From Zoogloea sp. (lineage in GTDB: Bacteria > Pseudomonadota > Gammaproteobacteria > Burkholderiales > Rhodocyclaceae), in the NCBI RefSeq assembly GCF_017302315.1, contig NZ_JAFLDT010000046.1, positions 1 to 33,384 on the forward strand: DNA of 33,384 nucleotides, written 5' to 3'. How positions within the stretch are numbered: position 1 is the first letter of the stretch; each line of letters begins with the position of its first letter. This document shows positions 12,884 through 31,999 of this stretch, one piece after another. Under the pieces are notes generated by a model, which saw only the letters and a list, made by a program, of their open reading frames with translations, was not told the origin of the DNA and made no database searches. The translations under genes were made by a program, and so were the position numbers.

Positions 12884-13324
12884 TCAGGCTGCCGACATGC
12901 GCCGCCGCAGCCAGTTCAGTGCGGTGCCCACCAGCGGCAGGCGGGAGAACAGCTCCTCACCGCTATCCCAGTAGTCCCGGTGAGCCATGACCCGACCGTC
13001 GGCGGCAAAACGCAGGTGGGTGGCACCGCGGATGCATTGCAGCTCGGCCTCCTTCCAGCCCCGGAAGCGGAACTGGAACTCCCAGGCCAGCCAGGCTTCG
13101 TCGCCCTCCGCCATGCGGTGGGTCACCCGGAAGCAGGGTGCCTGCACCTGCTCGTACATATGCCGGAACACCTTCTCGATGGCCGGCACGCCACACACTT
13201 CATTGAAGGGATCCTTGAAGCGGGCATCGGCGGCATACACCTCGGCGATGCGGGCCAGGCTGGCGGGAGACAGGGTTTCGTAGAACTCGACCACCCGCGC
13301 CACGGCTTGATGCGTGTCGTTCAC
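12884..13324 (-). CDS. NTF2-like / SnoaL-like protein, last gene of the lipid operon
   Basis: The 146-residue protein has the NTF2-like cone fold: a first helix VVEFYETLSPASLARIAEVYA, DARFKDPFNEVCG and CFRVTHRMAEGDEAWLAWEFQFRF. It ends with an aromatic strand, FAADGRVMAHRDYWDSGEE. In this fold the pocket can be catalytic (isomerase or cyclase) or only bind ligand, and no catalytic dyad can be assigned here. The start is GTG, sharing GTGA with the stop of the SDR gene. Proteins of this type occur at the end of cfa/COG2907 clusters elsewhere, so a role in modified fatty-acid metabolism is likely by context only. Confidence 0.8.
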   Translation of the reverse strand: MNDTHQAVARVVEFYETLSPASLARIAEVYAADARFKDPFNEVCGVPAIEKVFRHMYEQVQAPCFRVTHRMAEGDEAWLAWEFQFRFRGWKEAELQCIRGATHLRFAADGRVMAHRDYWDSGEELFSRLPLVGTALNWLRRRMSAA

Positions 13325-14112
13325 AGGCCGGTGCTCCGGGCGATCAGGCGGAAGTAGAGCCGGTCGGGCAGGATGCCGAGCAGCTTCAGGGCGCCGGTGA
13401 AGCGGCGGGGAAAATGGATCTCGAAGGCGCCACTGGCAAAGCCCCTGACGATGCGCGCCGCCGCATCCGCAGCGGTGATCAGCGCCGGCATCTCGAAATC
13501 GTTCTGGGCAGTGAGGGGCGTGGCGACAAAACCGGGATTGATCAGGAACACCGACACGCCCTTGGGGGCCAGGTCGAGGTACAGGGTTTCGGCAAAGTTG
13601 ATCAGCGCCGCCTTGCTCGGCCCGTAGGCCAGGGCCTTGGGCAAACCCCGGTAGCCGGCCACACTGCCGACGATGGCCAGCGCCCCGTGCCCCTGGAGAA
13701 GCAGTTGCGGCAAGGCCGCGGCCACACCGTCCATCACCCCGAGGAGGTTGGTGTGCACCGTATGGCGGGCGTTCTCGGCGGTCAGCTCCCAGGCCCGCAG
13801 GGGCAGATAGGTGCCTGCGTTGAGGATGACCAGATCCACACCGCCCCAGGCGTCCAGCAACTGCAGCATGGCCGGGGTGAAGGCCCCCGCATCGGTCACA
13901 TCCAGGGGCAGCACCAAGGCATCGCGCAGCCCGCCGGCCACCTGCTGCAGGCCTTTGGCACTGCGCGCCGACAGGGCCAGCCGCGCGCCGCGGGCGTCCA
14001 GCTCAGCAGCCAGCGCAGCGCCGATGCCCGAGGAGGCACCGACGATCCACACCCGCCGGCCCTGCCAGTCGGTGATCGGCGTGTTCAGCGGGTCAAACCA
14101 GCCCATCCCCAT
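13321..14112 (-). CDS. Short-chain dehydrogenase/reductase
   Basis: Classical SDR of 263 residues. The NAD(P)-binding motif is GASSGIG (25-31), with NAG at 98-100. Catalytic Ser150 is in IVGSVAGY and Tyr163/Lys167 in YGPSK, so the enzyme should be active. An Arg at position 43 after the second strand favours NADPH, though this is weak. The C-terminus is hydrophobic with basic residues (FTGALKLLGILPDRLYFRLI), which may associate with membrane. The gene lies between the DUF3833 and NTF2-like genes with overlapping ends. The substrate is unknown; a lipid intermediate is the contextual guess. Confidence 0.9.
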   Translation of the reverse strand: MGMGWFDPLNTPITDWQGRRVWIVGASSGIGAALAAELDARGARLALSARSAKGLQQVAGGLRDALVLPLDVTDAGAFTPAMLQLLDAWGGVDLVILNAGTYLPLRAWELTAENARHTVHTNLLGVMDGVAAALPQLLLQGHGALAIVGSVAGYRGLPKALAYGPSKAALINFAETLYLDLAPKGVSVFLINPGFVATPLTAQNDFEMPALITAADAAARIVRGFASGAFEIHFPRRFTGALKLLGILPDRLYFRLIARSTGL

Positions 14113-14114
14113 GT

Positions 14115-14642
14115 CTAGTCGCGCTTGCGGAAACTCAGGGTCACTTCGCCCAGGTGGAAGCCGAACTTGCTCATCACCGAACGGTTGAGCATCACCCGGT
14201 CATCCATCAGGAACATCCAGTCGTCGAAGTCCACGTTGTAAACCTTGCCATCCACCGGCAAGGCCATCACATACTTCCAGCGTAGTGCATTGCCGCGGGC
14301 TTCGCCGCTTGCCTCACCGACCACGTCATCGGCCTTGCCGGAGTAGCGGTGGGCGTCCAGCCGGGTGAGGGTCCACACCCGGCGCTGGGTGCTGCCGTCC
14401 GAGTAGGTGAAACGCTCGTCCAGGGTGCCGGTGTTGCCCGTCCAGCGGGCATCGATGACCACGTGGAATCGCTTTACCACCTTGCCGGAACGATCCTGGA
14501 AGATACCGTCGGCGTCGAGGGTGCCGTTGAAATAGCGGGTCAGGTCAAGCTCGGGCTTCTCGGTGGCGTAGTCGGCCACCTCCACCGACGCACAGCCGCC
14601 AAGCCCCACGAAGCCCGCCATCAGGATAGCCAGTTTGCTCAT
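14115..14642 (-). CDS. DUF3833 family lipoprotein
   Basis: The 175-residue product begins MSKLAILMAGFVGLGGCASV, a signal peptide with lipobox LGGC (Cys17). The mature part is a lipocalin-like beta barrel of the DUF3833 family: LDLTRYFNGTLDADGIFQDRSGK, FHVVIDARW, LDERFTYSDG, YSGKADDVVGEASG and MFLMDDRVMLNRS. The lipid anchor places it in the outer or inner membrane facing the periplasm. It may bind a fatty acid or hydrophobic ligand. The ATG overlaps the stop of the MFS gene. DUF3833, SDR and COG2907 genes recur together in singlet-oxygen-type clusters. Confidence 0.85.
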   Translation of the reverse strand: MSKLAILMAGFVGLGGCASVEVADYATEKPELDLTRYFNGTLDADGIFQDRSGKVVKRFHVVIDARWTGNTGTLDERFTYSDGSTQRRVWTLTRLDAHRYSGKADDVVGEASGEARGNALRWKYVMALPVDGKVYNVDFDDWMFLMDDRVMLNRSVMSKFGFHLGEVTLSFRKRD

Positions 14643-15898
14643 TGCAATTCCCCTTCCATGATCCGGCGCCACCGCCACAGGGCGGCAGCCGCCATCAGTT
14701 TGAGTACCAGGGGCACCACCGCATACACGGCCGACAGGGCCGCCATGGCGTCCGCATCCCGTGCCCCCGGCGCGTAGCCGAGAAAGCCCAGCAGCGGCAG
14801 GGCCAGCCCGGCCGCGAGGGCAAGATTGGCCTTGGTGACGAAGGCCCACCAGCCGAAACAGGCGCCAGCGCGCGCCTCCTCGCGGCGCGCCAGCTGATCG
14901 GCGAGCAGGGCCGGCGGCAGGGCCAGATCGGCGCCCAGGGCCAAGCCCGACAAAGCACACAGGGCACCGAAGGCCAGGATGTCGCCGGGGCCGATGAATG
15001 CGGCCCAGGCAAACACCGCCACGGCCAGCCCCATGCCGGCCAGCCAGGCCCGTGCCTTGCCCACCCGCCGGGCCAGACGCACCCACACGGGCAGGCCCGC
15101 GGCGCCAGCCAGAAAGTAGAGGGCCAGGAACAAGCCCGACAGGTCCTCCCGCCGGACCACATCGGCCACGAAGAACAGCACTGTGGACGCCGGCACCGCC
15201 GCCGCGATGCCATTGAGGGCGAAGACCCCCAGCAAGGCGGCAAAGGGCCGGTCGGCGAGGACGCCGCGCAGGGCCGCCCACGGGTTCTCATGCCGCGCCA
15301 CGGGGCGTCGGCCGGCGGGCATGCCCGGCAGGCTGACCAGGGCCACCAGCCCCAGGATCGTCACGAAGACCAGCCCCGTCCGCGCCAGCCCGGCCTCCAT
15401 GGTGGCGGCCAGCACGCCCGGCAGGGCAGCCGCCAGCAACACGCCAACAAGTCCGAAGCCCTCCCGCGAGGCCACCAGGCGGGTGCGCATGTCGCTGCTC
15501 TCGCCCAGCTCGGCGCCCCAGGCCCCGTGGTTGATGGTGGCCACCGAGTAGCCGAAGGTCACCACCACCAGCAAGCTCGCCAGCCACAGACCGCCCGCCC
15601 CGGGGGGCGGCGCCAGCAGGCCGCCCACCCCCAGGGCCAGCAGGGGCAGGGCCAGGGCGATGAGCCGTCGGCGACTCAGGAAGCGGTCGGAGGCCCAGCC
15701 GATCAGGGGGTCGCTCACCGCGTCGACGATGCGGGTCAGGAGCAGGATGGCCCCCACCAGGGCGAGGCTCAGCCCGGCCTGGTCAGCGTACAGTTTGGGC
15801 ACATGCACGTAGATGGGCAGTGCGGCAAAGGCAAGGGGCAGGCCGAGCAGACCATATCGCAGGCCAAAAAAGGCTACATGTCGCTCGCCGGCCGGCAT
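14639..15898 (-). CDS. MFS transporter, GPH/MelB-like
   Basis: The 419-residue integral membrane protein has about 12 hydrophobic helices. The loop between helices 2 and 3 has DAVSDPLIGWASDR, typical of the glycoside-pentoside-hexuronide (MelB-like) branch, whose Asp residues couple cation movement. Despite the family name, members in lipid operons have no known substrate. The ATG at 15898 shares one base with the stop of the previous gene (TGATG). A GTG one codon earlier is possible. By context it may move a lipid-related or hydrophobic compound, but that is a guess. Confidence 0.88.
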   Translation of the reverse strand: MPAGERHVAFFGLRYGLLGLPLAFAALPIYVHVPKLYADQAGLSLALVGAILLLTRIVDAVSDPLIGWASDRFLSRRRLIALALPLLALGVGGLLAPPPGAGGLWLASLLVVVTFGYSVATINHGAWGAELGESSDMRTRLVASREGFGLVGVLLAAALPGVLAATMEAGLARTGLVFVTILGLVALVSLPGMPAGRRPVARHENPWAALRGVLADRPFAALLGVFALNGIAAAVPASTVLFFVADVVRREDLSGLFLALYFLAGAAGLPVWVRLARRVGKARAWLAGMGLAVAVFAWAAFIGPGDILAFGALCALSGLALGADLALPPALLADQLARREEARAGACFGWWAFVTKANLALAAGLALPLLGFLGYAPGARDADAMAALSAVYAVVPLVLKLMAAAALWRWRRIMEGELQ

Positions 15899-16425
15899 CA
15901 CGAGGCCTGCCCGAGCAAGCGGCTGCGCAGGGCGGGAACCCGGGTGCGGCTGTCCAGCCAGATGGCGAAGAAGGCGCGGGCAAAGGCCGGATCGGCCACC
16001 TCGCCCGCCAGCCGGCCCTGGTGGTAGAAGGCCGCGCCACGGCCCGGCAGATGCACCCCGACGAGGGTCTCACCCGCCGCCACATCCGGAAATACCCGCT
16101 CCAGCTCCGCCTTCCAGCGGCCGAGGCGGGCATCGTCGCCGCCGCCGAGGCGCCGCATCTCATCAAGACTGGTGCTCACCAGGGTCTCCCGCGAGAACCC
16201 CCGGGTATAGGTCAGCACGAGGGCGAATGGGGCGTCCTCCCGATAGCCTTGGGCGCCGACCCACAGGGCCGCTTCATAGAGGCGCAAGCCCAGGAAGCGA
16301 GCCTCGCCGCTGCCGAGGGTGCGCCAGCCCGGTGCCAGGGCCTTCACCGGCTCGGGCAGGCTCGCCGCCACCGGCGCCGCCAGGGCCAGGGCGACGGCCA
16401 CCAGGACCTTAGCCAGACCGCGCAT
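15898..16425 (-). CDS. Exported chalcone-isomerase-like protein
   Basis: The 175-residue protein has a signal peptide (MRGLAKVLVAVALALAAPVA, cleaved near AAS). One domain related to bacterial chalcone-isomerase-like proteins follows: GSGEARFLGLRLYEAALWV, ALVLTYTRGFSRETLV, and a C-terminal FARAFFAIWLDSRTR. In plants this fold includes both chalcone isomerase and fatty-acid-binding relatives, and the bacterial exported forms probably bind fatty acids. No flavonoid chemistry is implied. It overlaps the cfa gene end by 17 bases and the MFS start by one. Confidence 0.85.
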   Translation of the reverse strand: MRGLAKVLVAVALALAAPVAASLPEPVKALAPGWRTLGSGEARFLGLRLYEAALWVGAQGYREDAPFALVLTYTRGFSRETLVSTSLDEMRRLGGGDDARLGRWKAELERVFPDVAAGETLVGVHLPGRGAAFYHQGRLAGEVADPAFARAFFAIWLDSRTRVPALRSRLLGQAS

Positions 16426-17638
16426 GGCTTAGCTGGAACTGATGCACATCCACGGTGCCCGCCCGGAAACCGGCTTCGCAGTAGGCCAGGTAGAAACGCC
16501 ACAGGCGCACGAAACGCTCGTCGTAGCCGAGCGCACGCACCTCCGGCAAGGCGGCCTCGAAGCCTTCGCGCCAGCGCACCAGGGTCTCGGCGTAGTCCTG
16601 TCCAAAGGCCAGATCCCCTCGCACGACGAGCCCGGCCTTGCGGACGTGCCGGCCGAACACCGCCGGGCTGGGCAGCATGCCGCCCGGAAAGACGTAGCGC
16701 TGAATGAAATCCGTACCCTTGCGATATCCGGCAAACAGGGCATCGGCAATGGTGATGGTCTGCACCACGGCGCGGCCACCGGGCTTGAGACGATCGCGGA
16801 TCTGGGCGAAATAACCCGGCCAGAAGCGCTCACCGACCGCCTCCATCATTTCGATGGAGACGATGTGATCGTAGCTACCGCGGACATCCCGGTAATCGCA
16901 CAGCTCAAAATCGGCACCGTCGGCCCAGCCCCCCTGCTCCGCCCGGGCCCGGGCCCAGCCCAGCTGCTCCCGCGACAGGGTCAGGCCAAGCACCCGGCAG
17001 CCGTACTCCTTGACCGCGATCTCTGCAAAGCCGCCCCAACCACAACCGATTTCCAGGATTAGCTGGCCGGGCCGCACATCCAGCTGCTCAAGCACATTGT
17101 GGTACTTGCGGCGCTGGGCACGCTCCAGCGACTCTCCCGGCGCCAGGCTCAGGGCACTGGAATAGCTCATCCCCGGGTCCAGCCACAGGCGGTAGAAATC
17201 GTTGCCCAGGTCGTAGTGGGCCTGGATGTTGCGAAGGGAACCTGCCCGGGTGTTGGCCCGCAGCAGGTGGGTCAGGCGATGGCCGATCAGGCGCCAGGCC
17301 TTGCCGTGGATGGCGCGCTGCAAGGTCTCCCGGTTGCGGGCCAGCAGCGTCAGCAGGGCCGGCAGGTCGGCGGTCTGCCAGTCGCCGGCCATCCAGGCCT
17401 CGGCAAACCCGATATCTCCCTTGGCCAGAATCTCGTCAAAGACCGCTTCGTCGGCCACACTCATGTGGGCCACGCAGGGGCCGCGCCCGACCCGCCGGGT
17501 CAGGCCGGTGCCGATCTGCACATCGATGGCGCCGCCGCCGATGCTGTCAAGAAGCCCCAGCACGAGGCGGGTGCCGCGGCGCAGGTGCGCAGCCTGGTCG
17601 GCAACGGCGCCGACAAAGGGGTGTTCCAGCCGGTTCAT
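16409..17638 (-). CDS. cfa: Cyclopropane-fatty-acid-synthase-family methyltransferase
   Basis: The 409-residue enzyme has an N-terminal lipid-interacting domain (1-135) and a SAM-dependent methyltransferase domain. Family landmarks are the NIQAHYDLGNDFYRLWLD stretch (137-154), LEIGCGWGG (195-203, SAM binding) and IEMMEAVGE. YRKGTDFIQRYVFPGGMLPS follows. It transfers a methyl group to the double bond of unsaturated phospholipid acyl chains. The product may be cyclopropane or a methylated precursor of furan fatty acids, as described for a Cfa relative in Rhodobacter. Sequence alone does not decide. The ATG at 17638 overlaps the DUF1365 stop. The frame extends to 17716, but that part is a shadow. 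Confidence 0.92.
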   Translation of the reverse strand: MNRLEHPFVGAVADQAAHLRRGTRLVLGLLDSIGGGAIDVQIGTGLTRRVGRGPCVAHMSVADEAVFDEILAKGDIGFAEAWMAGDWQTADLPALLTLLARNRETLQRAIHGKAWRLIGHRLTHLLRANTRAGSLRNIQAHYDLGNDFYRLWLDPGMSYSSALSLAPGESLERAQRRKYHNVLEQLDVRPGQLILEIGCGWGGFAEIAVKEYGCRVLGLTLSREQLGWARARAEQGGWADGADFELCDYRDVRGSYDHIVSIEMMEAVGERFWPGYFAQIRDRLKPGGRAVVQTITIADALFAGYRKGTDFIQRYVFPGGMLPSPAVFGRHVRKAGLVVRGDLAFGQDYAETLVRWREGFEAALPEVRALGYDERFVRLWRFYLAYCEAGFRAGTVDVHQFQLSHARSG

Positions 17639-18408
17639 GACGAAAGCTCCTCGGTGGGCGGATGGGGTTTGCAGAAGAAGGGAACGCGACGGAGGGCGAG
17701 CCGCAAGGCTTGCCAATGGATACGGGCCACCACGCCGAAGCTCATCAGCGGCAGTCGCCCCAGCCAGCCAAGCAGGACGCGGCCGGTGAGGGGCTGCTCC
17801 CGGCCCGATAGGCGGGTGGCGAGCTGGCAGTGGCCGCCTTCCCAGTAGTCAATGGCGGTGCTCACCACCCCACCCTGGCGGGAGAAGCGGAAGCGGTACT
17901 CACCCCGCACCGGAAAGAAGGGCGACACATGAAAGACCTTGCAGGCCTTCAGCTCGTCACCGGCCGTAATGGGGCGGTGGTCCGGGTGGGCCACCAGATA
18001 GTTGTGATGCTCGCCGAAGGTGTTGCTGACTTCGGCCAGCACGGCGCGCAGGCCGCCCTGTCGGTCGTGGCAGAACCAGAAGCTCACCGGGTTGAACAGG
18101 AAGCCGAACATGCGCGGCATGGTCTGCAGCACCACCTCGCCGTCGGCTTCGACCAGCCCCTGGCGGTCCAGCAGGTCGCGGATCCAGGGCAGCAGGGGTG
18201 AGCCGTTGCGGGCCCCGTGGTCGCGGCTGCGCAGGGAGAACACGCCCGGGCGATCCACACCCAGCAGCGGCACACGCAGGCCCTCCAGGCGGCTGAGGGG
18301 AATGCGCAGGGTGGCCAGGGGATAGGTGAAGCGGTTGTGCACCGGGCGGGTGCGCTCGTGCATCACCGCGCCCATGCACACCTTCGGCGCGAAAGCCTCG
18401 GCCGCCAT
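17635..18408 (-). CDS. DUF1365 family protein
   Basis: The 257-residue protein matches DUF1365, almost always found beside COG2907 and Cfa genes. Motifs are HERTRPVHNRFTYPLATLRIPL, FGFLFNPVSFWFCHD, SNTFGEHHNYLV and KVFHVSPFFPV. His and aromatic residues recur (FNPVSFWFCH, EHHNY), which could hold a metal or haem, but this is speculative. There is no signal peptide. A hydrophobic C-terminal part may touch the membrane. The gene overlaps both neighbours (COG2907 stop and cfa start) by four bases, so the three are translated as a unit. Confidence 0.9.
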   Translation of the reverse strand: MAAEAFAPKVCMGAVMHERTRPVHNRFTYPLATLRIPLSRLEGLRVPLLGVDRPGVFSLRSRDHGARNGSPLLPWIRDLLDRQGLVEADGEVVLQTMPRMFGFLFNPVSFWFCHDRQGGLRAVLAEVSNTFGEHHNYLVAHPDHRPITAGDELKACKVFHVSPFFPVRGEYRFRFSRQGGVVSTAIDYWEGGHCQLATRLSGREQPLTGRVLLGWLGRLPLMSFGVVARIHWQALRLALRRVPFFCKPHPPTEELSS

Positions 18409-19748
18409 CAGGCCACCACCTCGCTGAACTGACCGCTCCCCTGCCAGGGTGCCGCCACCCCCAGGGCCGCCGCCACGGCGAGGGCCGACTTGAGCCCGTC
18501 CTCATGGAAGCCGTAGCCTGTCCAGGCACCGGCAAACCAGCTATGGCCTTGCCCCTGCAGGGCCGGCAGGCGGGCCTGGGCGTCAATGGCGCCCTGGTCA
18601 AAGACCGGGTGAGCATACCCATAGCGCCCGAGCACGGTATCGGCCTCTGGCTCGACGAGGGGATTGAGGGACAACACCACCGGGGTGGACACGGGCAGCG
18701 GCTGCAGCCGGTTGAGAAGGTAGGACACGGACACCGGCCGCTCACCGGGGGCCCCCTCGCCGGACAGGTAGTTCCAGGCGGACCACACACCGCGTCGGCG
18801 GGGTAGCAGGCGCGTGTCGGTGTGCAGCCAGGCATCGTTGTGCTGGTACTTGACGGCCCCCAGCACTGCGCGCTCGAGCTCGCTGGCGTCGGCGCCGAGC
18901 AGGGCCAGGGTCTGGTCGGAGTGGCAGGCAAACACCACCTCGTCGAAACGCTCGACATCGCGGCGGGTACGCACGGCCACGCCGAAGCCCGCCTCACGAC
19001 GCACCTCCAGGACGGGGGTGGCGACCCGCACTTCGCCGATACCGCTTGCCAGCTTGTCCACGTAGCTGCGCGCACCGTTTCTCACGGTGTACCAACGCGG
19101 GCGGTCGAAGACCTGCAGCAGGCCGTGGTTGTGGCAGAAACGCACAAAGGTGGCCAGCGGATAGGCCAGCATGCTGCGGGTCGGGCAGCTCCAGATGGCG
19201 GCAGCCATGGGGATCAGGTACCAGTCGCGGAAAGCGTGGCCATAGCCATTAATCAACAGGTAGTCACCGAGGGCCATGTCGGGGGTCGTGCCTTCCCGGG
19301 CCATGCGGGTGGTTTCCCGATTGAAGCGCCCAATGTCCTGGAGCATCTGCCAGAACGCCGGCCGCAGGAGATTGCGGCGCTGGGCAAAGAGGCTGGCCAG
19401 ATCGCTGCCCGCCCACTCAAGGTCGTTCGACGCAAGGCTCACGCCGAAGGACATCTCGCTTTCCACGGTATCGACGCCGAGGAGGGCAAAAAGGGCACAC
19501 AAGTTGGGGTAGGTGCGTCGGTTGAAGACCAGGAAACCGGTATCCACCGGAAAGCACTGCCCATCCACCTCGATGTCCACCGTGTGGGTGTGCCCCCCCA
19601 GGTAATCTCCTCCTTCGTACAGCACCACCTCGTGTTCGCGGCTGAGCAGCCAGGCACTCGCCAGGCCGGCGATGCCGGCGCCGATCACGGCAATGCGCCT
19701 ACCCTCCCGGGGACGGGGAGCGAACTTGTCTAGCGGACCACGATCCAT
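18408..19748 (-). CDS. FAD-dependent amine-oxidase-type oxidoreductase (COG2907)
   Basis: The 446-residue flavoprotein has the dinucleotide-binding motif VIGAGIAGLASAWLL (21-35) followed by VVLYEGGDYLGGHTHT, typical of the COG2907 group of amine-oxidase/desaturase-like flavoproteins. A C-terminal FAD motif WFAGAWTGYGFHEDGLKSAL closes the fold. Relatives in Rhodobacter belong to the singlet-oxygen regulon and to furan fatty-acid formation, where a flavoprotein desaturates a methylated acyl chain. That role fits here but is inferred. The ATG at 19748 has AGGAG about 7 bases upstream. It is the first gene of the eight-gene operon ending at 12884. The usual ECF sigma/ChrR genes are not adjacent. 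Confidence 0.92.
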   Translation of the reverse strand: MDRGPLDKFAPRPREGRRIAVIGAGIAGLASAWLLSREHEVVLYEGGDYLGGHTHTVDIEVDGQCFPVDTGFLVFNRRTYPNLCALFALLGVDTVESEMSFGVSLASNDLEWAGSDLASLFAQRRNLLRPAFWQMLQDIGRFNRETTRMAREGTTPDMALGDYLLINGYGHAFRDWYLIPMAAAIWSCPTRSMLAYPLATFVRFCHNHGLLQVFDRPRWYTVRNGARSYVDKLASGIGEVRVATPVLEVRREAGFGVAVRTRRDVERFDEVVFACHSDQTLALLGADASELERAVLGAVKYQHNDAWLHTDTRLLPRRRGVWSAWNYLSGEGAPGERPVSVSYLLNRLQPLPVSTPVVLSLNPLVEPEADTVLGRYGYAHPVFDQGAIDAQARLPALQGQGHSWFAGAWTGYGFHEDGLKSALAVAAALGVAAPWQGSGQFSEVVA

Positions 19749-19784
19749 TGGCTACTCCTAACTATGACTCTGGCGCTCAGCGCA

Positions 19785-19890
19785 TGTGAAAAAACGTAGC
19801 AAGCAGTTCGAGTTCGTCCCGAGAAGCGCAGCCGTGCCGGGCGTACGGCGCGCATCGCAGGGGCGAGATCGGGCCGCGCAGTAGCGCTAT
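19785..19890. repeat. ~105-bp dispersed intergenic repeat, copy 2
   Basis: Matches 9402-9506 in the same orientation, sharing GTTCGAGTT, CCCGAGAAGCGCAGCCGT, GCAGGGGCGA and ATCGGGCCGCGCAGTAG. The central hairpin arms differ in sequence (GCCGT...ACGGC) yet still pair, so structure rather than sequence is kept. It lies between the folE2 stop and the COG2907 promoter. Confidence 0.8.
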
Positions 19891-19900
19891 TCACACGCGC

Positions 19901-20701
19901 TCAATCGTTGCGGCCTTCCATGAGGGCGTAGGCCGAGTGGTTGTGGATCGACTCGAAGTTCTCCGATTCCACCGTCCAGGCCGCAATGCGCGGCTCGGCG
20001 CGCAGGCGCAGGGCCACGTCGCGCACCAGGTCTTCGACGAACTTGGGGTTGTCGTAGGCACGTTCGGTCACCCACTTTTCGTCCGGGCGCTTGAGCAGGC
20101 CGAAGATCTCGCAGGAGGCCTCCTCCTCGGCGATGCGTACCAGTTCCTCCAGGCTCATGTCCTCCCGCAGCAGCACGCTCAGGGTCAGGTGGGAGCGCTG
20201 GTTGTGGGCGCCGTAGTCGGAGATCTTCTTGGAGCAGGGGCACAGGCTGGTCACCGGCACCACCACCTTGATGCTCAACGCCGCATCGCGACCGAAGGCC
20301 TTCTCGACCGTCACGGTAGCGTCCAGATCCAGCAGACTTTCAACCCCGCTGACCGGTGCACGTTTGCGCATGAAGAAGGGGAAGCACACCTCCATCCGGC
20401 CGGCCGTCGCCCCCAGGTGGATCAGGGTTTCGCAGATCATGCCGCGCAGGCCCTCCAGATCCAGGGCCGCGCGATCAGCCTCGAGCACCTCGACGAAGCG
20501 CGACATGTGGGTGCCCTTGACCTCGGGCGGCAGGAACACGGTCATCTCCAGCGTGGCGACGGTGTGCTGGACCTGCCCATCCCGATCCAGAAAGCGCAGG
20601 GGATAACGCAGGCCACGCACGCCGACTCGCTGGATGGCGAGCTGGCGCAAGTCCTCACTGGCCTGTACATCGGGAAGGTGCAGCTTTTCAGGGGCATTCA
20701 C
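19901..20701 (-). CDS. folE2: GTP cyclohydrolase FolE2 (type IB)
   Basis: FolE2 converts GTP to 7,8-dihydroneopterin triphosphate, the first step to folate and other pterins. It does not need zinc, unlike FolE. The 266-residue protein has the COG1469 marks: [11 protein letters not shown] (63-73), [20 protein letters not shown] (151-170, with metal-binding Cys and His166), YDNPKFVED (216-224) and [10 protein letters not shown] (250-259). In many bacteria folE2 is Zur-controlled. Here it lies about 7 kb from the Zur operon, behind gpx, in an operon starting at 21526. GGAG precedes the ATG by about 9 bases. No Zur-like box is seen upstream. Confidence 0.95.
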
Positions 20702-20740: not shown

Positions 20741-21304
20741 TCAAGGCCGCTCGGCGAGGGCCTTTTCAATGGCATTCACGAGGGTGCGGCTGTCCGGTGA
20801 GGTGGTGCTGGGGAAGCTCGACACCTTCTGGCCGCTGCGATCAATCAGGTATTTATGGAAATTCCACTTCGGCCGCTCTCCGGTGAGGGACGCGAGCTGG
20901 CGATAAAGGGGATTGGCGGTCGCCCCGACCACGTCGGTCTTCGCAAACATCGGGAACTTGACGCCGTAGGTCAGGCGGCAGAAGTCGGCGATCTCCTTGT
21001 TGCTGCCGGGCTCCTGACTGCCGAAGTCGTTGGACGGGAAGCCCACCACCACGAGGCCCTGCTCCCGATATTTGGCATGCATCTTTTCCAGCCCGTCGTA
21101 CTGGCCCGTGAAACCGCAGTAGCTCGCGGTATTGACCACCAGCACGACCTTCCCCCGGTACTGGCACAGGGATTGGGGCACATCGTCCTGAAGCCGTGGA
21201 AAGCGATGATCGAGGAGGGGCGGGCACGCGTCCTGGGCAGCCCAGGAGGCGGCGGAGGCCAATAGCAGGGCGCCGATGAGTAGGGGGCGGGCAAGGCTGA
21301 CCAT
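20741..21304 (-). CDS. Periplasmic glutathione-peroxidase-family protein
   Basis: The 187-residue protein has a signal peptide (1-22, ending ASWA) and the thioredoxin-like peroxidase fold. Peroxidatic Cys63 is in VNTASYCGFTGQY (58-70), Gly/Asn-rich GFPSNDFGSQEPGS (88-101) follows, and WNFHKYL (147-153) gives the active-site Trp and Asn. Cys109 is a candidate resolving cysteine, which would make it thioredoxin-dependent. It likely removes lipid or hydrogen peroxides in the periplasm. The gene lies 12 bases after the small gene at 21317 and 39 before folE2, in one operon. Confidence 0.92.
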   Translation of the reverse strand: MVSLARPLLIGALLLASAASWAAQDACPPLLDHRFPRLQDDVPQSLCQYRGKVVLVVNTASYCGFTGQYDGLEKMHAKYREQGLVVVGFPSNDFGSQEPGSNKEIADFCRLTYGVKFPMFAKTDVVGATANPLYRQLASLTGERPKWNFHKYLIDRSGQKVSSFPSTTSPDSRTLVNAIEKALAERP

Positions 21305-21316
21305 GGTCTTCCCCGC

Positions 21317-21526
21317 TCAGAGACCGGCGTTCTGGTGCAGGAAGATCTTCACATCAAGATCGTCGTCCTGGACAGGGAAGGCGCTGGATTCCGACGCGGC
21401 CTGAGCAAGCGGACTCTCGAAGACGTGTGGCTGAGCGGCCATGTGCTGAACACCGAAGGCCACCGCCCCCATGAACAGCATGGTGGTGATCAGGCCGGAG
21501 GGTGTCTCGACGCGGGATGTGTTCAT
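21317..21526 (-). CDS. Small membrane or secreted peptide (69 aa), first gene of gpx-folE2 operon
   Basis: The ATG at 21526 has AGGA about 9 bases upstream, inside the palindromic site at 21532-21544. A TTG at 21544 is possible but would lie in the operator. The product has one hydrophobic segment (about 8-26, GLITTMLFMGAVAFGVQHM), then a polar acidic tail (FPVQDDDLDVKIFLHQNAGL). It may be a one-pass membrane or exported peptide. I do not recognise it. Its place at the head of a peroxidase/FolE2 operon and divergent from a CarH-like regulator suggests a light or oxidative-stress role. Confidence 0.6.
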   Translation of the reverse strand: MNTSRVETPSGLITTMLFMGAVAFGVQHMAAQPHVFESPLAQAASESSAFPVQDDDLDVKIFLHQNAGL

Positions 21527-21531
21527 GATGT

Positions 21532-21544
21532 TTGTCCTAGACAA
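21532..21544. promoter_or_regulatory. Palindromic site TTGTC-CTA-GACAA (putative operator 1)
   Basis: Five-base arms around CTA, placed just before the small gene at 21526 so that its AGGA ribosome-binding site falls inside the site. It shares the TTGTCC/GGACAA core with the second site at 21592. It is probably bound by the MerR-type regulator encoded at 21611. Confidence 0.6.
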
Positions 21545-21591
21545 TTGATAGACACATCCCTACACTAGAACCAAATATTCGCAATGTCAAC

Positions 21592-21610
21592 ATTTTGTCC
21601 AGGACAAAAT
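21592..21610. promoter_or_regulatory. Perfect palindrome ATTTTGTCC-A-GGACAAAAT (putative operator 2)
   Basis: Nine-base arms around one central A, ending immediately before the regulator's ATG at 21611. Its AGGA serves as ribosome-binding site, so binding here would block both transcription and access to the start. Between sites 1 and 2 lies the AT-rich divergent promoter region. Confidence 0.7.
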
Positions 21611-22546
21611 ATGAACACACCTCTCCAAGCAACCGGTCTGCCCATCGCCGCAGTGGAGCGCGACACCGGCCTGGCCAAGGACACCCTGCGCGTCTGGGAA
21701 CGTCGCTACGGTTTCCCGCAGCCCGCGCGGGACGCCAATGGGGAGCGGACCTATCCGCTGGAGCAGGTGGACAAGCTGCGCCTGATCCGGCGCCTGATTG
21801 ATCAGGGTCTGCGCCCGGCGAAGATCATCGGCCTCGATGTGCAGGCCCTGGTGGGCATGCTCGACGAAATCGGCAAGCCCCGTGACGGCGGCGATCCGGA
21901 GCGCTGCGCGCAGTTCGCGGCCATCCTCAAGTTCGTGCGCCTGCACCTCCATGAGGATCTGCGGCGCACCCTGCAGCAACTACTGATGAAACTCGGCTTG
22001 CAGCGCTTTGTCAGCGAGGTGGTGGCGCCCCTCAACCGCGTGGTGGGTGACGCCTGGCTGCGCGGAGAGCTGGAGGTACCCGAAGAGCATCTCTACACGG
22101 AGCAGATCCAGAACATCCTGCGGGCCGCAATCAGTGCCCACGCCGCCCTGCGCAGCGGCCGGCCGGTGGTGATGTTGACCACCTTCCCCGAGGAACAGCA
22201 TGCGCTCGGCTTGTTGATGGTGGAGGCAACCCTCACGCCGGAAGGCGCCTGCTGCGTCTCTCTGGGCACCCAGACCCCCCTTGAGGACATCCGCAACGCG
22301 GCCGCCAGCGGGCGCTTCGACATCGTGGCCGTCTCCTTCAGCTCGGCCTACCCGGCCCGCCAGGCCATTGATGGCCTGCGCACCCTGCGCAGCGGGCTGC
22401 CGGAGCAGGTCAGTCTATGGGCGGGCGGCGCGGCCCTGCAGGGGGCCGCCAGGAAACTCCCGGGCATCACGGTTTTCGAGTCCATTGATGATCTACCCGG
22501 CGCCCTCGATGCTTGGCGCAGGCTTTACTGCGCCGCTCAGGCGTAA
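21611..22546 (+). CDS. MerR-family regulator with B12-binding (CarH/LitR-like) domain
   Basis: The 311-residue protein has a MerR helix-turn-helix (about 8-75, LRVWERRYGFPQPARDANGE), a four-helix B12-cap domain and a Rossmann-like cobalamin domain. The CarH photoreceptor signature W-x9-EH is present as W149 and E159-H160. HxxG, with the lower-face cobalt ligand, is H197-A-L-G200. CarH binds DNA as a tetramer with adenosylcobalamin in the dark and falls apart in light. By analogy this protein should be a light-dependent repressor. The ATG at 21611 has AGGA at 21601. An ATG at 21584 in frame lies before the operator. Divergent from the gpx-folE2 operon; its stop overlaps the gluQ stop by 10 bases. 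Confidence 0.9.
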   Translation: MNTPLQATGLPIAAVERDTGLAKDTLRVWERRYGFPQPARDANGERTYPLEQVDKLRLIRRLIDQGLRPAKIIGLDVQALVGMLDEIGKPRDGGDPERCAQFAAILKFVRLHLHEDLRRTLQQLLMKLGLQRFVSEVVAPLNRVVGDAWLRGELEVPEEHLYTEQIQNILRAAISAHAALRSGRPVVMLTTFPEEQHALGLLMVEATLTPEGACCVSLGTQTPLEDIRNAAASGRFDIVAVSFSSAYPARQAIDGLRTLRSGLPEQVSLWAGGAALQGAARKLPGITVFESIDDLPGALDAWRRLYCAAQA

Positions 22547-25757: not shown

Positions 25758-26695
25758 CGCAGGCGTCGGCTGCGCTCGAGACGCTCGGCAAACTTCGGAA
25801 AATCCAGCCCGGTGCGCTGCCGCAGTGCCTTGGCCTGGTTGCCGATCTCGCGCCAGCGCGGGGCAAAACCGGGGGCGCGGATGGCCAGAACGATGTCGTT
25901 GCCGTCCGCCAGGGACATCGTCAGCACCCGATCATCGAAAACCTCGGCGATCATCGCCAGATGGGCCGCCCGGTCAAGCCGCTCGCCAGCCAGATTGGCC
26001 ACCATCACACCCCGCCCGGCAAGGGCATCATGCACCGTCTGGTAGAAGTATCTGGAGTTCACCGAACCGGAGATGCCATGGCGATCAAAGGCATCCATCA
26101 CGATCACGTCCGGCCGCTCGCTCCACCCCCCGCTCTCGATCACCGCGTCGGCCCCGTCACCCTCCCGCACCTGCAGGCGTTCATCGTCGGGTGGGAGCTC
26201 GAACTGGTCACGAAAGGCAATCACCCGGGGGTCGATCTCCACCACCGTGATGCGCGCCGACCCCACATTCCGATAGCAGAACTTGGCCAGCGAGCCGCCC
26301 CCCAGCCCCAGCATGAGGATGTGGCGCGGCTTGGGCAGGAAGAGCAGGAAGCTCATCATCGCCTGGGTGTAGTCCAGTTCCAGGGCGAAGGGATCCTTCA
26401 GGCTCATGGTGCTCTGGATCAGGGACAAGGAGAAATGCAGGCTGCGAGTGGTGCCGTCGTCAATGATGAAGGGCTTGTCATAGGCCCCGGAGACCACTTG
26501 GCCGAGCACCGCGCGGGTGTCGCAATCGGCAGGCTCAAGGAGCCGGATCGTATCCCCATCGGAAAAGAAGGGGCTGGGCAGAACGAGGACGTTGGGAGTC
26601 TCGGCGGCAGGCACGGCAGGCTTCGAGCAGAGGACGGAGGCGCATTGTAAGCCGCCGAGACGACCCGTCACGGCATATCGCGACAGGTAGGGCAC
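25748..26695 (-). CDS. Spermidine-synthase-like (SpeE-fold) protein
   Basis: The protein, up to 315 residues, has the Rossmann fold of aminopropyltransferases: HILMLGLGGGSLAKF (125-139), VVEIDPRVI (151-159, acidic Glu/Asp pair) and VIVMDAFD (197-204). The usual GGGDGG reads GLGGGS, so the Asp that helps bind decarboxylated SAM is missing. Substrate may differ, and it could be a methyltransferase-like relative of unknown function. The start is uncertain: the GTG at 26695 lies inside the zur reading frame, with no in-frame ATG until far inside the domain. The overlap suggests co-expression with zur, which may be incidental. Confidence 0.75.
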   Translation of the reverse strand: MPYLSRYAVTGRLGGLQCASVLCSKPAVPAAETPNVLVLPSPFFSDGDTIRLLEPADCDTRAVLGQVVSGAYDKPFIIDDGTTRSLHFSLSLIQSTMSLKDPFALELDYTQAMMSFLLFLPKPRHILMLGLGGGSLAKFCYRNVGSARITVVEIDPRVIAFRDQFELPPDDERLQVREGDGADAVIESGGWSERPDVIVMDAFDRHGISGSVNSRYFYQTVHDALAGRGVMVANLAGERLDRAAHLAMIAEVFDDRVLTMSLADGNDIVLAIRAPGFAPRWREIGNQAKALRQRTGLDFPKFAERLERSRRLRYA

Positions 26696-27141
26696 ACCGC
26701 ACCGATCTCCACCTCCGGACTCTCGAGCCGATGCCCCGCCGCCGCCAGACTGGCCGCAAGGGCCTTCATCACGGCATCATCCTGGAGTTCGGTGACCCCA
26801 TTGCAACGGGGGCAGACGAGGAAAAGCCCCGGCATCTGCGCTTGGTGGCAGTGCTGACTGCACGCCACAAAGAGGTTCATCCGCCCGACCTTGTGGGCCA
26901 GCCCCTGCTCAATCAGAAAGTCCAGTGCCCGATAGACCGTCGGAGGCGAGGCGCCCGGCTTGTCTGCCTTGATCCGCTCCAGCAGATCGTAGGCCTTCAA
27001 CCCGCGGGGGTGCCGCAACAGTAGCGCCAGTACCAGACGCCGGATGGGGGTCAGACTGGCGCCACGGCTGCGACAGCTCACCTCGGCCCGATCAAGGAAA
27101 CCGGTTTCGACAGCGTCTGGGGAAGGGGCGGCACTATTCAT
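26668..27141 (-). CDS. zur: Zinc uptake regulator Zur (Fur family)
   Basis: Zur represses zinc-saving genes when zinc is plentiful. The 157-residue protein has a winged helix (about 17-92, recognition helix SPPTVYRALDFLIEQG) and a metal-binding dimerisation domain, with paired structural-zinc cysteines C110/C113 (CPRC) and C150/C153 (CPTC). ACSQHCHQ (93-100) gives candidate regulatory ligands. The ATG at 27141 is chosen; a GTG four codons earlier (27153) is possible. Neither has a strong ribosome-binding site. The gene is divergent from hisI and shares a perfect palindrome (27165-27184), so it should repress itself and the operon. Confidence 0.9.
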   Translation of the reverse strand: MNSAAPSPDAVETGFLDRAEVSCRSRGASLTPIRRLVLALLLRHPRGLKAYDLLERIKADKPGASPPTVYRALDFLIEQGLAHKVGRMNLFVACSQHCHQAQMPGLFLVCPRCNGVTELQDDAVMKALAASLAAAGHRLESPEVEIGAVCPTCRDMP

Positions 27142-27164
27142 GGGGCAATTCACACAGGGGGCGA

Positions 27165-27184
27165 TGCAATGTTATAACATTGCA
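27165..27184. promoter_or_regulatory. Zur box, perfect 20-bp palindrome
   Basis: TGCAATGTTATAACATTGCA is an exact palindrome and fits the ATGTTATAACAT core of proteobacterial Zur boxes. It is centred between zur (start 27141) and hisI (start 27208). Its TATAAC sequences may double as -10 elements. Binding would shut both promoters. Confidence 0.92.
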
Positions 27185-27207
27185 ACCCCGCAGATTGTCA
27201 GTACGCC

Positions 27208-27648
27208 ATGTTAACCCGACTTGAGTCCGCCCCTCCCGGCAGTCAGCTCCCCCTTGATGCCGTGCTCGACAGCCTTCCCTGGACCCCGGACGGCCTGATC
27301 GCCGCCATTGCCCAGCAACACGACACGGGTGAGGTGCTGATGCTGGCCTGGATGAACCGGGCCGCCCTCGTGGAAACCCTGAGCACCGGCCAGGCCTGCT
27401 ACTGGTCCCGTTCCCGGCACAGCCTGTGGCGCAAGGGCGAGACCTCGGGCTGCAGGCAACGTGTCGTCGATGTCCGCTTCGACTGCGACGGCGACGCCGT
27501 GCTGCTGCAGGTGGACCAACTGGGCGGCGCCTGCCACACCGGGCGGCGTAGCTGCTTCTACAACGGCGTGCGCGGTGACCGGGTCGAAGTCCTCGACGCC
27601 CCACTCCCGGCCCTATCCACCCCGATTTCCCACAAGGAGACCCCATGA
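27208..27648 (+). CDS. hisI: Phosphoribosyl-AMP cyclohydrolase, second-copy type (HisI)
   Basis: HisI opens the purine ring of phosphoribosyl-AMP in histidine synthesis and needs zinc. The 146-residue single-domain protein keeps all three zinc cysteines (C93 in DCDGD, C109 in ACHTG, C116 in SCF) and the Asp ligands of magnesium (D92, D94, D96). It is therefore not a zinc-free substitute. It stands outside any his operon and directly behind the Zur box, which marks it as a likely paralogue made under zinc starvation. Its stop overlaps the next gene's ATG (27645) by four bases. Confidence 0.92.
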
Positions 27649-28874
27649 CCCCGTCCTCCCGGGCCAGACTGCCCGTCACCGTCCTGTCCGGCTTCCTCGG
27701 TGCCGGCAAGACCACCCTCCTCAACCACGTCCTGCACAACCGGCAAGGCCTCAAGGTGGCAGTCATCGTCAATGACATGTCGGAGGTCAACATCGATGCC
27801 CGCCTGGTGGCCGAGGGCGGCGCCGAGCTGTCCCGGTCCGAGGAGAAGCTGGTGGAGATGAGCAATGGCTGCATCTGCTGCACCCTGCGCGAAGACCTGC
27901 TGGTGGAGATCCGCCACCTGGCAGCGGAGGGTCGTTTCGACTATCTGCTCATCGAATCCACCGGCATCTCTGAGCCGCTGCCAGTGGCGGAAACCTTCAC
28001 CTTCCGGGACGAGAACGGCGTCAGCCTGTCCGACATCGCCCGTCTTGACACCCTGGTCACCGTCGTCGACGCCTTCAACTTCCTGCGCGACTATGGCTCC
28101 ACCGACTACCTGGCCGACCGGGGTGAGAGCCTGGGCGAAGAAGATCAGCGCACCGTCGTGAACCTGCTGGTGGATCAGGTGGAGTTCTGCGACGTCATCG
28201 TCCTCAACAAGACCGACCTGCTGGACGCAGCCGAGCTGGAGCGCCTGGAAGGCCTGCTGAAGAACCTCAATCCCCGCGCCGAGATCGTCCGCGCCCGCTT
28301 CGGCCAAGTGCCCCTGGAACGCATCCTCGACACCGGGCGCTTCGACTTCGCCGCCGCGGCCGAAGCGCCGGGCTGGCTGGCCGAACTGCGCGGCGAGCAT
28401 GTGCCGGAAACCGAGGAGTACGGCATCACCAGCTTTGTGTACCGGGCCCGGCGCCCCTTCCACCCCCAACGTTTCCACGAATGGATCAACCAGGAGTGGC
28501 CCGGGGTGGTCCGCTCCAAGGGCTACTTCTGGCTGGCCAGCCGCCCCACCATGGTGGGCAGCTGGTCCCAGGCCGGGGCGGTGGTCCGCCACGAGCTGGC
28601 CGGCCTGTGGTGGGCCGCCGTACCGCGGGAGCGCTGGCCCCAGGACGAAGAAGGCCTGGCCGCCATCCGGGCCCGCTGGGACGACGCCGTGGGCGACGCC
28701 CAGCAGGAGCTGGTCCTGATCGGCATCGACATGGACGAGGCCGCCCTCCGCGCCCGCCTGGACGCCTGCCTGCTGAACGACGCCGAGTACGCCAGCCGCC
28801 CTGCTGAGTGGACGCGGCTACCCGACCCCTTCCCCCGCTGGGCCTTCGCCAGCCAGGAGCAAACCCATGGATGA
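27645..28874 (+). CDS. zigA: COG0523 GTPase, ZigA-like zinc metallochaperone
   Basis: G3E-family GTPase of 409 residues. Walker A is GFLGAGKTT (16-24), the metal-binding CxCC is CICC (76-79), Walker B is LLIESTG, and the base-recognition motif is NKTD (188-191). The C-terminal CobW_C domain spans about 285-395. Sequences such as [16 protein letters not shown] and [19 protein letters not shown] match the Zur-controlled ZigA/YeiR type, which is thought to pass zinc to client enzymes during shortage. Coupled to hisI upstream (ATGA) and overlapping the second COG0523 gene by 8 bases. HisI and ThrS, encoded alongside, are possible clients. Confidence 0.92.
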
Positions 28875-29937
28875 ACACGAGGCGCACGACCCCAGGATTC
28901 CCATCACCCTGCTCACCGGCTTTCTTGGTGCAGGCAAAACAACCCTGTTGAACCATCTCCTGCGCCAGCCGGAGATGGCCCGGGCCGCCGTGTTGATCAA
29001 CGAATTCGGCGCCGTCGGCATCGACCACCATCTGGTCGAGCGCGTCGACGGAAACGTCCTGATCCTGGACTCGGGCTGCCTGTGCTGCACCGTCAAAAGC
29101 GAGCTGACCCGCAGTCTGGCCGATCTGTTCCTGCGCGCCCTGCGCAAGGAGGTTCCGGTATTCGACCGGGTCGTCATCGAAACCACCGGCCTCGCCGATC
29201 CCGTGCCGGTGATCCAGGCACTGATGAACGATTTCTTCGTCGCCGAACGCTTCCGTTTCGATGGGGTCATCACGGCGGTGGACGCGGTCTTCGGCCGCGA
29301 CCAGATCCAGCGTCATCGGGAAGCCCTGCGCCAGGTCGTCATGGCCGACCGCCTGCTGATCACCAAGTGCGACCTGGCAGGCGGTGTCGAGCTCGCGTCG
29401 CTGGAGCAGGATCTCGCCGCCCTCAACTCCGGGGCAAGCCGGATTCACGTCTCCGGCGGAGAGGTGGCCGCCTCGGCCATCATCGATTGCGGCCTCTATG
29501 ACCCGGGCGGCAAGGTGCCCGACGTGGTCCGCTGGCTTGCGCCGCCCGCCGCGACAGGCATCCGCTACACACCGCGGACAGCGCCCGCCTTGAACGCCCC
29601 CCACGACGGCAGCGTCCAGAGCTTCACCCTGGTCTTCGACCGGCCTCTGCCCTGGGTGCGCTTCATCGACAGCCTGAGCCGACTTCTCGACACCTGTGGC
29701 GACCAGGTCCTGCGGGTGAAGGGGCTGCTGAAGGTCACGGGCGATACGCGCCCCTGGGTGGTCCAGGGTGTTCACGACATGGCCTACCCGCCCATCCAAT
29801 TGCCCGCATGGCCTGCCATGCCGCCCTTTGACGACGGCCGCAGCCGGCTTGTCTTCATCGTCCAGGACCTGCCCCGGGCGCAGATCGAGGCGGGCTTCTC
29901 GGGCTTGCTCGACGCCCCCCAGCCCCTCGCGGGCTGA
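28867..29937 (+). CDS. Second COG0523 GTPase (CobW/P47K family)
   Basis: A 356-residue relative of the previous gene but from another subgroup. Walker A is GFLGAGKTT (18-26), the metal motif is CLCC (71-74) in [15 protein letters not shown], and the base-recognition motif is TKCD (166-169) instead of NKxD. The C-terminal CobW_C domain has [16 protein letters not shown] and [11 protein letters not shown]. The two proteins share little outside the motifs, so this is not a recent duplication. It is probably a second zinc chaperone with a different client. A 109-base gap, containing pyrimidine-rich repeats (TTCACCCCC), separates it from thrS. Confidence 0.9.
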
Positions 29938-30046
29938 TCCACCGCCACCCGCTCGAGGAAGCTCGGCAAGCACCGGCCGCTCATCGTCGTCGCGCTGCCC
30001 CGCCCTTCACCCCCTTCACCCCCTTCTCCTACCAGGCTCACGCACC

Positions 30047-31999
30047 ATGCTCTGCATCACCCTGCCTGATGGCAGCAAGCGCACGTTTGCGCACCCGCTC
30101 ACCGTGGCCGACGTCGCCGCCGCCATCGGCCCCGGCCTCGCCCGGGCCACCCTCGCCGGCTGTGTCGATGACCGCCCCGTCGATACCAGCTTCCGCATCG
30201 ACAGGGACGCCCGGCTCAGTCTGATCACCCAGGACAGCCCCGAAGGCCTGGCGATCCTGCGTCACTCCTGCGCCCACCTGCTGGCCATGGCCGTGAAGCA
30301 ACTGTTCCCGGGCGCCCAGGTCACCATCGGCCCGGTCATCGAAGAGGGCTTCTTCTACGACTTCGCCTTCGAGCGCCCCTTCACCCCCGACGATCTGTCA
30401 CTGATCGAGGCCCGCATGCACGAACTGGCCGCCGCCGACCTGCCCGTCACCCGGCGCGAACTTCCCCGTGACGAGGCCATTGCCCACTTCGAACAGCAGG
30501 GCGAGCACTACAAGGCGGAGCTGATCCACGCCATCCCGGAAGGCGAGTCCCTGTCGCTCTATCGCCAGGGCGACTTCGAGGACCTGTGCCGGGGCCCCCA
30601 CGTGCCTTCCACCGGCCGACTCAAAGCCTTCAAGCTGACCAAGGTGGCGGGCGCGTACTGGCGCGGCGACGCCACGAAGGCCATGCTGCAACGCATCTAC
30701 GGCACCTGCTGGCCCGATACCAAAGCCCTCGCCGCCTACCTCACCCGCCTTGAGGAAGCCGGCAAGCGTGACCACCGCAAGCTCGGCGCCCAGCTCGACC
30801 TCTTTCATTTCGACGACAGCGCGCCGGGATCGGTGTTCTGGCACGCCCGGGGCTGGACCCTCTTCCAGCAGTTGATCGCCTACATGCGGGCACGCCAGGA
30901 CGAGGCGGACTACATCGAAGTCAACACCCCGGACGTGATGGACCGGGGGCTGTGGGAGACCTCCGGCCACTGGTTCAACTATCGCGACGCGATGTTTACC
31001 ACCACCACCGAGGACGAGCGGGTGTTTGCCCTCAAGCCCATGAACTGCCCCGGCGCCGTCTCGCTGTTTGCCCAGGGCATCAAGAGCTACCGCGACCTGC
31101 CCCTGCGTATGGCCGAGTTCGGCAAGGTGCACCGCTACGAGCCCTCCGGCGCCCTGCACGGCCTGTTGCGGGTGCGCCACTTCACCCAGGACGACGCCCA
31201 CATCTTCTGCACCCCCGCCCAGATGCAGGACGAGTGCGCCCGCAGCATCGCCCTGGTGTTCGCCATCTACCGGGATTTCGGTTTCGATGAGGTGGCCGTC
31301 AAGCTGTCCACCCGCCCGGCCCGGCGCATTGGCGACGACGCCACCTGGGACGCCCTGGAGGCTGCCCTGTCGGGCGCCCTTGAACGGATGGGCATCGCCT
31401 ACCGGGTCAACCCCGGCGAAGGCGCCTTCTACGGCCCCAAGCTGGAGTTCGTGCTGCGTGACGCCATCGGCCGCGACTGGCAGTGCGGCACCCTGCAGGT
31501 GGACCTGAACCTGCCCGAGCGCTTCGACATCCACTACATCGATGAAAAAGACCAGCGCCAGCGCCCGGTCATGCTGCACCGGGCTCTGTTCGGCTCCCTG
31601 GAACGCTTCACCGGCATCCTGATCGAGCACTACAGCGGCCTCTTCCCCCTGTGGCTGGCCCCACGCCAGGCCGTGGTCCTCAACATCAGCGAGGCGCAGG
31701 GCGACTACGCGCAGCACCTCGCCAGGGCGCTGAAGCAGGCGGGCATCCGCGCCGCTGCCGATCTACGCAACGAGAAGATCGGCTACAAGATCCGCGAGCA
31801 CACCCTGCAGAAGGTGCCCTACCTGATTATCGTCGGCGAGCGGGAACAGCACGCCGGCTGCGCCACCCTGCGCGCCCACGACGGTGCCGATCTGGGCCGC
31901 CTCGAACTCGCCGCCATCATCGAACGCCTCTCCCGGGAAGCCCGGCCGCCCTCGCACCGGGAGGCCCCGGAAGCCCTCCACCCCTGCCCCCTGCCATGA
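30047..31999 (+). CDS. thrS: Threonyl-tRNA synthetase, second-copy type
   Basis: Full-length 650-residue ThrRS. It has TGS domain (1-62), editing domain with H73/H77 and C181/H185, class II catalytic core (about 245-530) and anticodon-binding domain (about 538-640). The active-site zinc ligands C334 (MNCPG), H385 (DDAH) and H511 (MLHR) are all present at E. coli positions, so zinc is still needed. The usual thrS neighbours (infC, rpmI, rplT) are absent. With the Zur box upstream, this indicates an extra copy induced in zinc shortage. The ATG at 30047 fits the family N-terminus. An upstream open frame to 29768 is not used. The stop overlaps the next start (ATGA). Confidence 0.93.

Follow-up and report, generated by a model that had tools for sequence, protein, structure and literature searches.

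Paired palindromic sites around the divergent promoter of a predicted B12-type LitR/CarH regulator in Zoogloea

Results

The litR locus and its neighbourhood

The window, meaning the whole stretch of DNA analysed here, is a 33.4-kb contig of a 4.5-Mb Zoogloea genome and encodes a LitR/CarH-like regulator (LitR) opposite a row of minus-strand genes, in the order small peptide, gpx, folE2, FAD oxidoreductase, DUF1365, CMAS, Chalcone_3, MFS, DUF3833 and SDR. The features of the locus are as follows.

21611..22546, plus strand: LitR/CarH-like regulator, 311 aa, with Pfam, PDB and fold matches
21530..21546, no strand: predicted operator site A, core TTGTCCTAGACAA (21532-21544), with the putative litR -35 box in the right half
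21593..21609, no strand: predicted operator site B, TTTTGTCCAGGACAAAA, containing the litR start-site AGGA
21538..21566, plus strand: putative litR promoter, -35 TAGACA (21538-21543), 17 bp, -10 TACACT (21561-21566); consensus match only
21562..21590, minus strand: putative divergent promoter, -35 TTGACA (21590-21585), 17 bp, -10 TAGTGT (21567-21562)
21585..21601, minus strand: two TnnACA repeats at 11-bp spacing, TGGACA from 21601 and TTGACA from 21590
21317..21526, minus strand: small peptide, 69 aa, with a hydrophobic stretch close to the N-terminus and DDDLDVKIFLHQNAGL as its end
20741..21304, minus strand: glutathione-peroxidase-like gpx (GSHPx)
19901..20701, minus strand: GTP cyclohydrolase FolE2 (GCHY-1; NF010200 over cut-off)
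18408..19748, minus strand: FAD-dependent amine-oxidase-like protein, candidate operon member, 152 bp past folE2
17635-18408, minus strand: DUF1365 (Pfam)
16409-17716, minus strand: CMAS cyclopropane-synthase-like protein (Pfam)
15898-16425, minus strand: Chalcone_3 (family profile)
14639-15901, minus strand: MFS_2 (family profile)
14115-14657, minus strand: DUF3833 (family profile)
13321-14112, minus strand: SDR (family profile)

The 69-aa peptide, which precedes gpx, has no match in Pfam or NCBIfam; its Zoogloea relatives, of 66-75 aa, share a comparable end (DDxDVxxFxHQN). Frames resembling gpx, FolE2 or the FAD oxidoreductase, named by resemblance to the proteins of the window rather than by family search, lie divergent from LitR at many other loci in several families, while at some LitR loci the divergent frame is different or unconvincing. 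No RNA family reaches its gathering threshold in the window. Further along, at 26668-32556, genes for a Zur-like regulator, PRA-CH (HisI-like), ZigA, a second COG0523-type GTPase, a ThrRS-type protein and hexapeptide proteins form a likely zinc-starvation cluster around a 20-bp palindrome, TGCAATGTTATAACATTGCA (27165-27184).

A CarH-like regulator with leucine in place of His132

The open reading frame of the regulator spans 21584-22546 on the plus strand, and ATG 21611 is its likelier start, with AGGA at 21601-21604 and a 6-nt gap. The original prediction had described this protein as CarH-like and as keeping two cobalamin signatures, W-x9-EH and HxxG, and both descriptions hold: numbered from 21611, the signatures are W149 with E159-H160 and H197-x-x-G200, which align with W131, E141-H142 and H177 of Thermus thermophilus CarH (TtCarH), and the predicted fold is that of CarH. 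Indeed, PDB entry 5c8d (Thermus CarH) matches at E 4e-27 in an alignment covering most of the regulator, and for an AlphaFold model (mean pLDDT 87.6) built on 18 aligned rows the best PDB fold matches are CarH 5c8e and 5c8d (E 3.7e-17), the CarH cobalamin domain aligning with the model at a TM score of 0.83 by target length. Profiles, alignment and model place MerR DNA-binding, four-helix and Rossmann B12 domains in the protein; MerR_1 and B12-binding_2 exceed their Pfam cut-offs, B12-binding scores 28.8 bits against a cut-off of 32.1, and the NCBIfam CarH equivalog NF052513 gives 126.9 bits, short of its cut-off of 400. Three of the four motifs of the SignatureFinder set (GxxW, EH, GxxH, GxxxP) are present, the exception being GxxH, whose Gly is Glu so that the motif reads EEQH. 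The position of TtCarH His132 is occupied by Leu in the alignment with 5c8d. A CobA/BtuR adenosyltransferase is encoded in the genome.

Relatives were collected from 117 LitR loci (96 of the 103 rows from the order and another 21 from Zoogloea), of which three were dropped from the protein alignment. Of the 114 aligned proteins, 110 have equivalents of all four residues W131, E141, H142 and H177, 51 have the Gly of GxxH and none has His132. Since His132 is absent from all 114, the release chemistry of TtCarH cannot simply be transferred to this family. The role of His132 as the upper light-state ligand is not universal among B12 photoreceptors. CtMerR has Arg at position 132, yet it loses its adenosyl group in the light (PMC11796333), and in another study (PMC10442372) H132A TtCarH was mostly tetrameric after light, an earlier report of disassembly also being mentioned there.

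Paired palindromes conserved across Zoogloea

The core of site A has one mismatch to TTGTCCNGGACAA, while that of site B, TTGTCCAGGACAA (21595-21607), is a perfect palindrome without mismatch to it; the two lie 63 bp apart, and no other match with 0-1 mismatch to TTGTCCNGGACAA occurs in the whole window. Of the matching TTGTCC/GGACAA palindromes pointed out at this promoter, both are there and only B is perfect. The start-site AGGA reported in each reads in the sense direction of its gene, 6 nt ahead of ATG 21611 (plus strand) and 8 nt ahead of ATG 21526 (minus strand). Further sites had been sought in the genome: with 0-1 mismatch the 13-bp core occurs 13 times per strand, versus 12 for the reversed control, and of its two perfect places the second lies inside a 640-aa frame, so the 13-bp core alone is not significant genome-wide and we dropped this count as evidence. 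Additional sites did emerge across the genus, and the significance of the sites comes from their conservation and position. Between folE2 and the FAD oxidoreductase gene (19749-19900) there is no further operator at up to 3 mismatches. The two photolyase genes of the same genome were rejected as targets, as no 15-mer at up to 4 mismatches lies in their loci (L050 and L051, about 3.4 kb each).

The closest regulator matches in the searched genome contigs come from nine Zoogloea records (72-97% identity), and all nine loci keep both sites, site A being perfect in seven and carrying the variant of the window in two. Across the window and these nine, 13 of 14 columns are invariant at 21531-21544 and 14 of 14 at 21594-21607, versus 20 of 49 in between. 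A genus scan with TTTGTCCNNGACAA gave matches in 22 of 23 Zoogloea genomes, 85 over both strands versus 2 for the reversed pattern. LitR is present in 21 of the 23; of the two genomes that lack it, G307 has no site and G313 one asymmetric site inside long frames.

Sites in the genus also lie at other genes. In ten genomes (L056, L058, L060, L066, L075, L090, L095, L097, L099, L103) an FAD oxidoreductase gene, identified from its sequence, has a site at its start, with Pfam Amino_oxidase run on L097 only. An SDR gene lies opposite in five of them (L058, L060, L066, L075, L095; Pfam on L058) and a DNA-photolyase-family gene (Pfam) lies across the site in L090; at an eleventh locus, L059, the SDR side was seen. 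DUF3429 genes follow a site at L086, L089 and L102 (Pfam on the first and last of these), lipocalin genes do so at L065 and L077 (Pfam on the former), and a CBS-domain gene at L005, from the genome of the window, and at L061 (Pfam on L005). At L005 (1500-1514, contig C85) TTTGTCCAAGACAAA immediately precedes this last gene, and L061 has a perfect palindrome at the same place. Exact sites deep in frames of 428-786 aa (L055, L064, L068, L088, L092, L093) were taken as chance; this call is tempered by the fact that several sites accepted as operators overlap long frames as well, the DNA being GC-rich.

Motif and regulator across the order

The order sampled is Burkholderiales as delimited by GTDB; NCBI puts Zoogloea in Rhodocyclales. 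Of 300 genomes sampled from the order, 97 have a LitR match with E of 1e-40 or lower and 42 have exact TTTGTCCWNGACAAA, the reversed control giving 12 matches in all. With the genome of the window omitted, exact TTTGTCCWNGACAAA occurs in 32 of 96 LitR-bearing genomes versus 9 of 203 others (Fisher p 8e-11, a value that ignores kinship), and 26 of the 54 distinct sites fall between 24 bp inside and 119 bp before the LitR match. Thus, the motif goes with the regulator across the order. Residue 25, in a helix that we take to be the MerR recognition helix, varies with the sites as well: 76 of 88 proteins with T or V at this position have sites, compared with 2 of 26 with L or A (Fisher p 1e-13, but with three independent changes in total, one of them well supported). 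Exact operator-like sites were also seen near iscR-like genes of three genomes (L134, L136, L138, around position 1501), and one exact order-level site near another gpx-like gene, all named by look.

Pair geometry and 11-bp repeats

In the window, sites A and B flank the predicted divergent promoter, whose -10 boxes overlap; the putative litR -35 box lies inside site A, and site B is 11 bp from the divergent -35. For the putative divergent promoter, GTCAA and TAnnnTA are kept in most pairs; a consensus scan gave TGGACA-N16-AATATT instead of TTGACA/TAGTGT. Sites upstream of LitR were called when they differed from TTTGTCCNGGACAAA at no more than 3 positions and lay 10-215 bp ahead of the codon matching residue 20 of P0001. 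Two were found at 53 of the 117 loci, one at 28 and none at 36, and 20 rounds of mononucleotide shuffles left on average 0.0 loci with a pair and 0.9 with at least one site. The 53 spacings are 52 bp (1), 62 bp (1), 63 bp (32), 64 bp (6), 74 bp (11) and 134 bp (2); 39 pairs are therefore spaced by 62-64 bp and 11 by 74 bp, about 6 or 7 helical turns.

Leaving aside the two pairs at 134 bp, 22 Zoogloea and 29 other loci carry a pair. TAnnnTA, the overlapping -10 boxes, lies at a constant offset from A in 42 of these 51, and GTCAA, the reversed divergent -35, has a distance to B of 8 bp in 32 pairs, of 19 bp in 11 and of 7 or 9 bp in four, while four pairs lack it. As the 11 pairs with 19 bp are the 74-bp class, in which the divergent -35 keeps its position relative to A, the extra 11 bp lie between the divergent -35 and B. 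A FastTree phylogeny, with 43 of 111 inner branches unresolved, places this class in two separate groups (L117-120, and L121-125 with L179 and L196). In 15 of the 29 pairs from outside Zoogloea, GTCA takes the place of GACA in the inner arm of site A, so that this site is often an imperfect palindrome.

Known CarH operators are tandem 11-bp repeats, nnnnTnnACAn, and in Thermus one repeat holds the -35 box (PMC9304148, PMC8156234). On the minus strand, site B contains a TnnACA and a second one follows 11 bp further in, at the divergent -35, which gives the candidate operator the look of a CarH-type repeat joined to a palindrome. Among the 50 pairs at 62-64 or 74 bp, TGTnnA recurs 11 bp inside B in 27 and 22 bp inside in 11; three TnnACA repeats stand in a row at 6 of 11 loci of the 74-bp class, and the window has two. 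For site A, no partner is conserved at steps of 11 bp among the pairs. The predicted operator looks composite, made of palindromes together with direct repeats of 11 bp, a -35 box among them. A TAGACA, TAGACA repeat at 11 bp in the spacer of the window recurs at that place in only 4 of 51 pairs and was taken as chance. L121-L125, L179 and L196 have TTGTC-type units at 11-bp steps with the palindrome at the end, three in a row in six of the seven and at none of the other 74-bp loci.

Discussion

The regulator is probably a class-I-like LitR/CarH dark repressor, released by light, of its own gene and of peptide-gpx-folE2, which partly supports the original prediction. The basis for this reading lies in the sequence, in the predicted fold, the AdoCbl contact residues, the candidate operators with their promoter-like boxes and helical phasing, and the linkage of motif and regulator. 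Weighing against it are the missing His132 and the changed GxxH, the low NCBIfam CarH score, the 36 of 117 loci without a site, the often imperfect site A outside Zoogloea, the few independent changes behind the residue-25 covariation and the finding of no motif near the two photolyase genes. We infer that the protein binds both cobalamin and DNA. In the dark, the AdoCbl-bound form would oligomerise and, from a single face of the helix, hold A and B on either side of the divergent promoter, perhaps bridging them, and the litR and peptide-gpx-folE2 transcripts would both be blocked. Light would break the Co-C bond and make the oligomer let go of the DNA, whereupon photoprotective genes and the regulator itself would be produced. 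The light response of Zoogloea LitR is in this sense a prediction.

The Zoogloea system resembles T. thermophilus CarH, a class I LitR, in the full-length fold, W-x9-EH, lower His and GxxxP of the regulator and, less clearly, in a candidate operator where TnnACA recurs at 11 bp, once as a -35 box. It departs from it in the missing His132 and changed GxxH, in the added palindromes paired around a divergent promoter and in its neighbours, which are gpx, folE2 and others instead of carotenoid genes. CtMerR, a cobalamin photoreceptor of Chloracidobacterium, likewise has a CarH-like domain without His at 132 (PMC11796333), but is distant in sequence (PDB 8jbs, E 1.7e-5) and has Arg where Leu stands here. 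For Pseudomonas class II LitR, PMC9758184 names phrB, SDR, FAD oxidoreductase, UfaM and folE as light-induced genes and describes a protein unable to bind B12, said to retain no more of the B12 domain than its helix bundle, with a LOV partner and TGTACA-N12-TGTACA sites, one operator covering the -35 and a second lying between the start site and the start codon. The SDR, FAD oxidoreductase, UfaM and folE set of class II (PplR1, PmlR2) resembles the set in the window, and the operator layout is the one seen here for litR. In contrast to class II, the Rossmann part is present in our model and matched to CarH, and the conserved sites are TTGTCCNGGACAA-like. A weak search for TGTACA-type sites, on the plus strand only with some loci reversed, had none among its matches in 29 upstream regions (L021-L049). 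Among the papers listed in searches of an open-access library, none deals with a TTGTCCNGGACAA-like operator or with the regulon of a B12-type LitR in Betaproteobacteria.

It is conceivable, though unlikely, that the same regulator and operators serve a signal other than light sensed via AdoCbl, with a LOV-type partner or as a plain cobalamin or redox sensor. The missing His132, the altered GxxH and the similar gene set that class II LitR governs with its LOV partner (PMC9758184) would fit such a scheme; the AdoCbl-contacting W, E and H and the lower His, kept in nearly all relatives, argue against it, as does the Rossmann part retained in the model, given that class II is described in the same paper as keeping the helix bundle only. 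That the palindromes belong to another regulator accompanying litR appears most improbable: exact sites in nine genomes without a LitR match and the three near iscR-like genes point that way, but sites at the litR promoter in several families, the co-occurrence and the covariation with residue 25 speak against it. We also regard it as quite improbable that folE2 is part of the nearby zinc-starvation (Zur) cluster instead of a light regulon. The palindrome at 27165-27184 and the genes that surround it at 26.7-32.6 kb (Zur-like, ZigA, PRA-CH, ThrRS-type and hexapeptide) speak for this; however, no box of that type lies at gpx-folE2, near 21.5 kb, at up to 3 mismatches, and folE2-like or gpx-like frames are divergent from LitR in several families.

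A more serious contender concerns the phasing itself, which may reflect the divergent promoter, with B set by its -35, and not the bridging of A and B by one oligomer. We lean against this explanation while granting it considerable weight: B is in step with the divergent -35, at 8 or 19 bp, and forms 11-bp repeats with it. The pairing of A with B is left unexplained by such a constraint, which is otherwise equally compatible with the data.

Light-released repression by a CarH-like LitR remains our preferred reading, and a B12-type LitR with a composite, phased and paired candidate operator is a variation on the known CarH/LitR theme. A bolder proposal, which we advance tentatively and hold to be somewhat short of even, is that these proteins form a widespread subfamily of B12 photoreceptors without the His132 switch, in which A-B spacing changes in one-turn steps of 11 bp and a single oligomer on the composite operator may clamp the divergent promoter, silencing both sides. 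What the analysis offers for B12-type LitRs beyond carotenoid control is a predicted operator and a predicted regulon, and with the 63/74-bp series cooperative or bridged binding can readily be put to the test. With AdoCbl contacts intact in 110 of 114 members and His132 in 0 of 114, this natural family makes the need of a His switch for light release testable.
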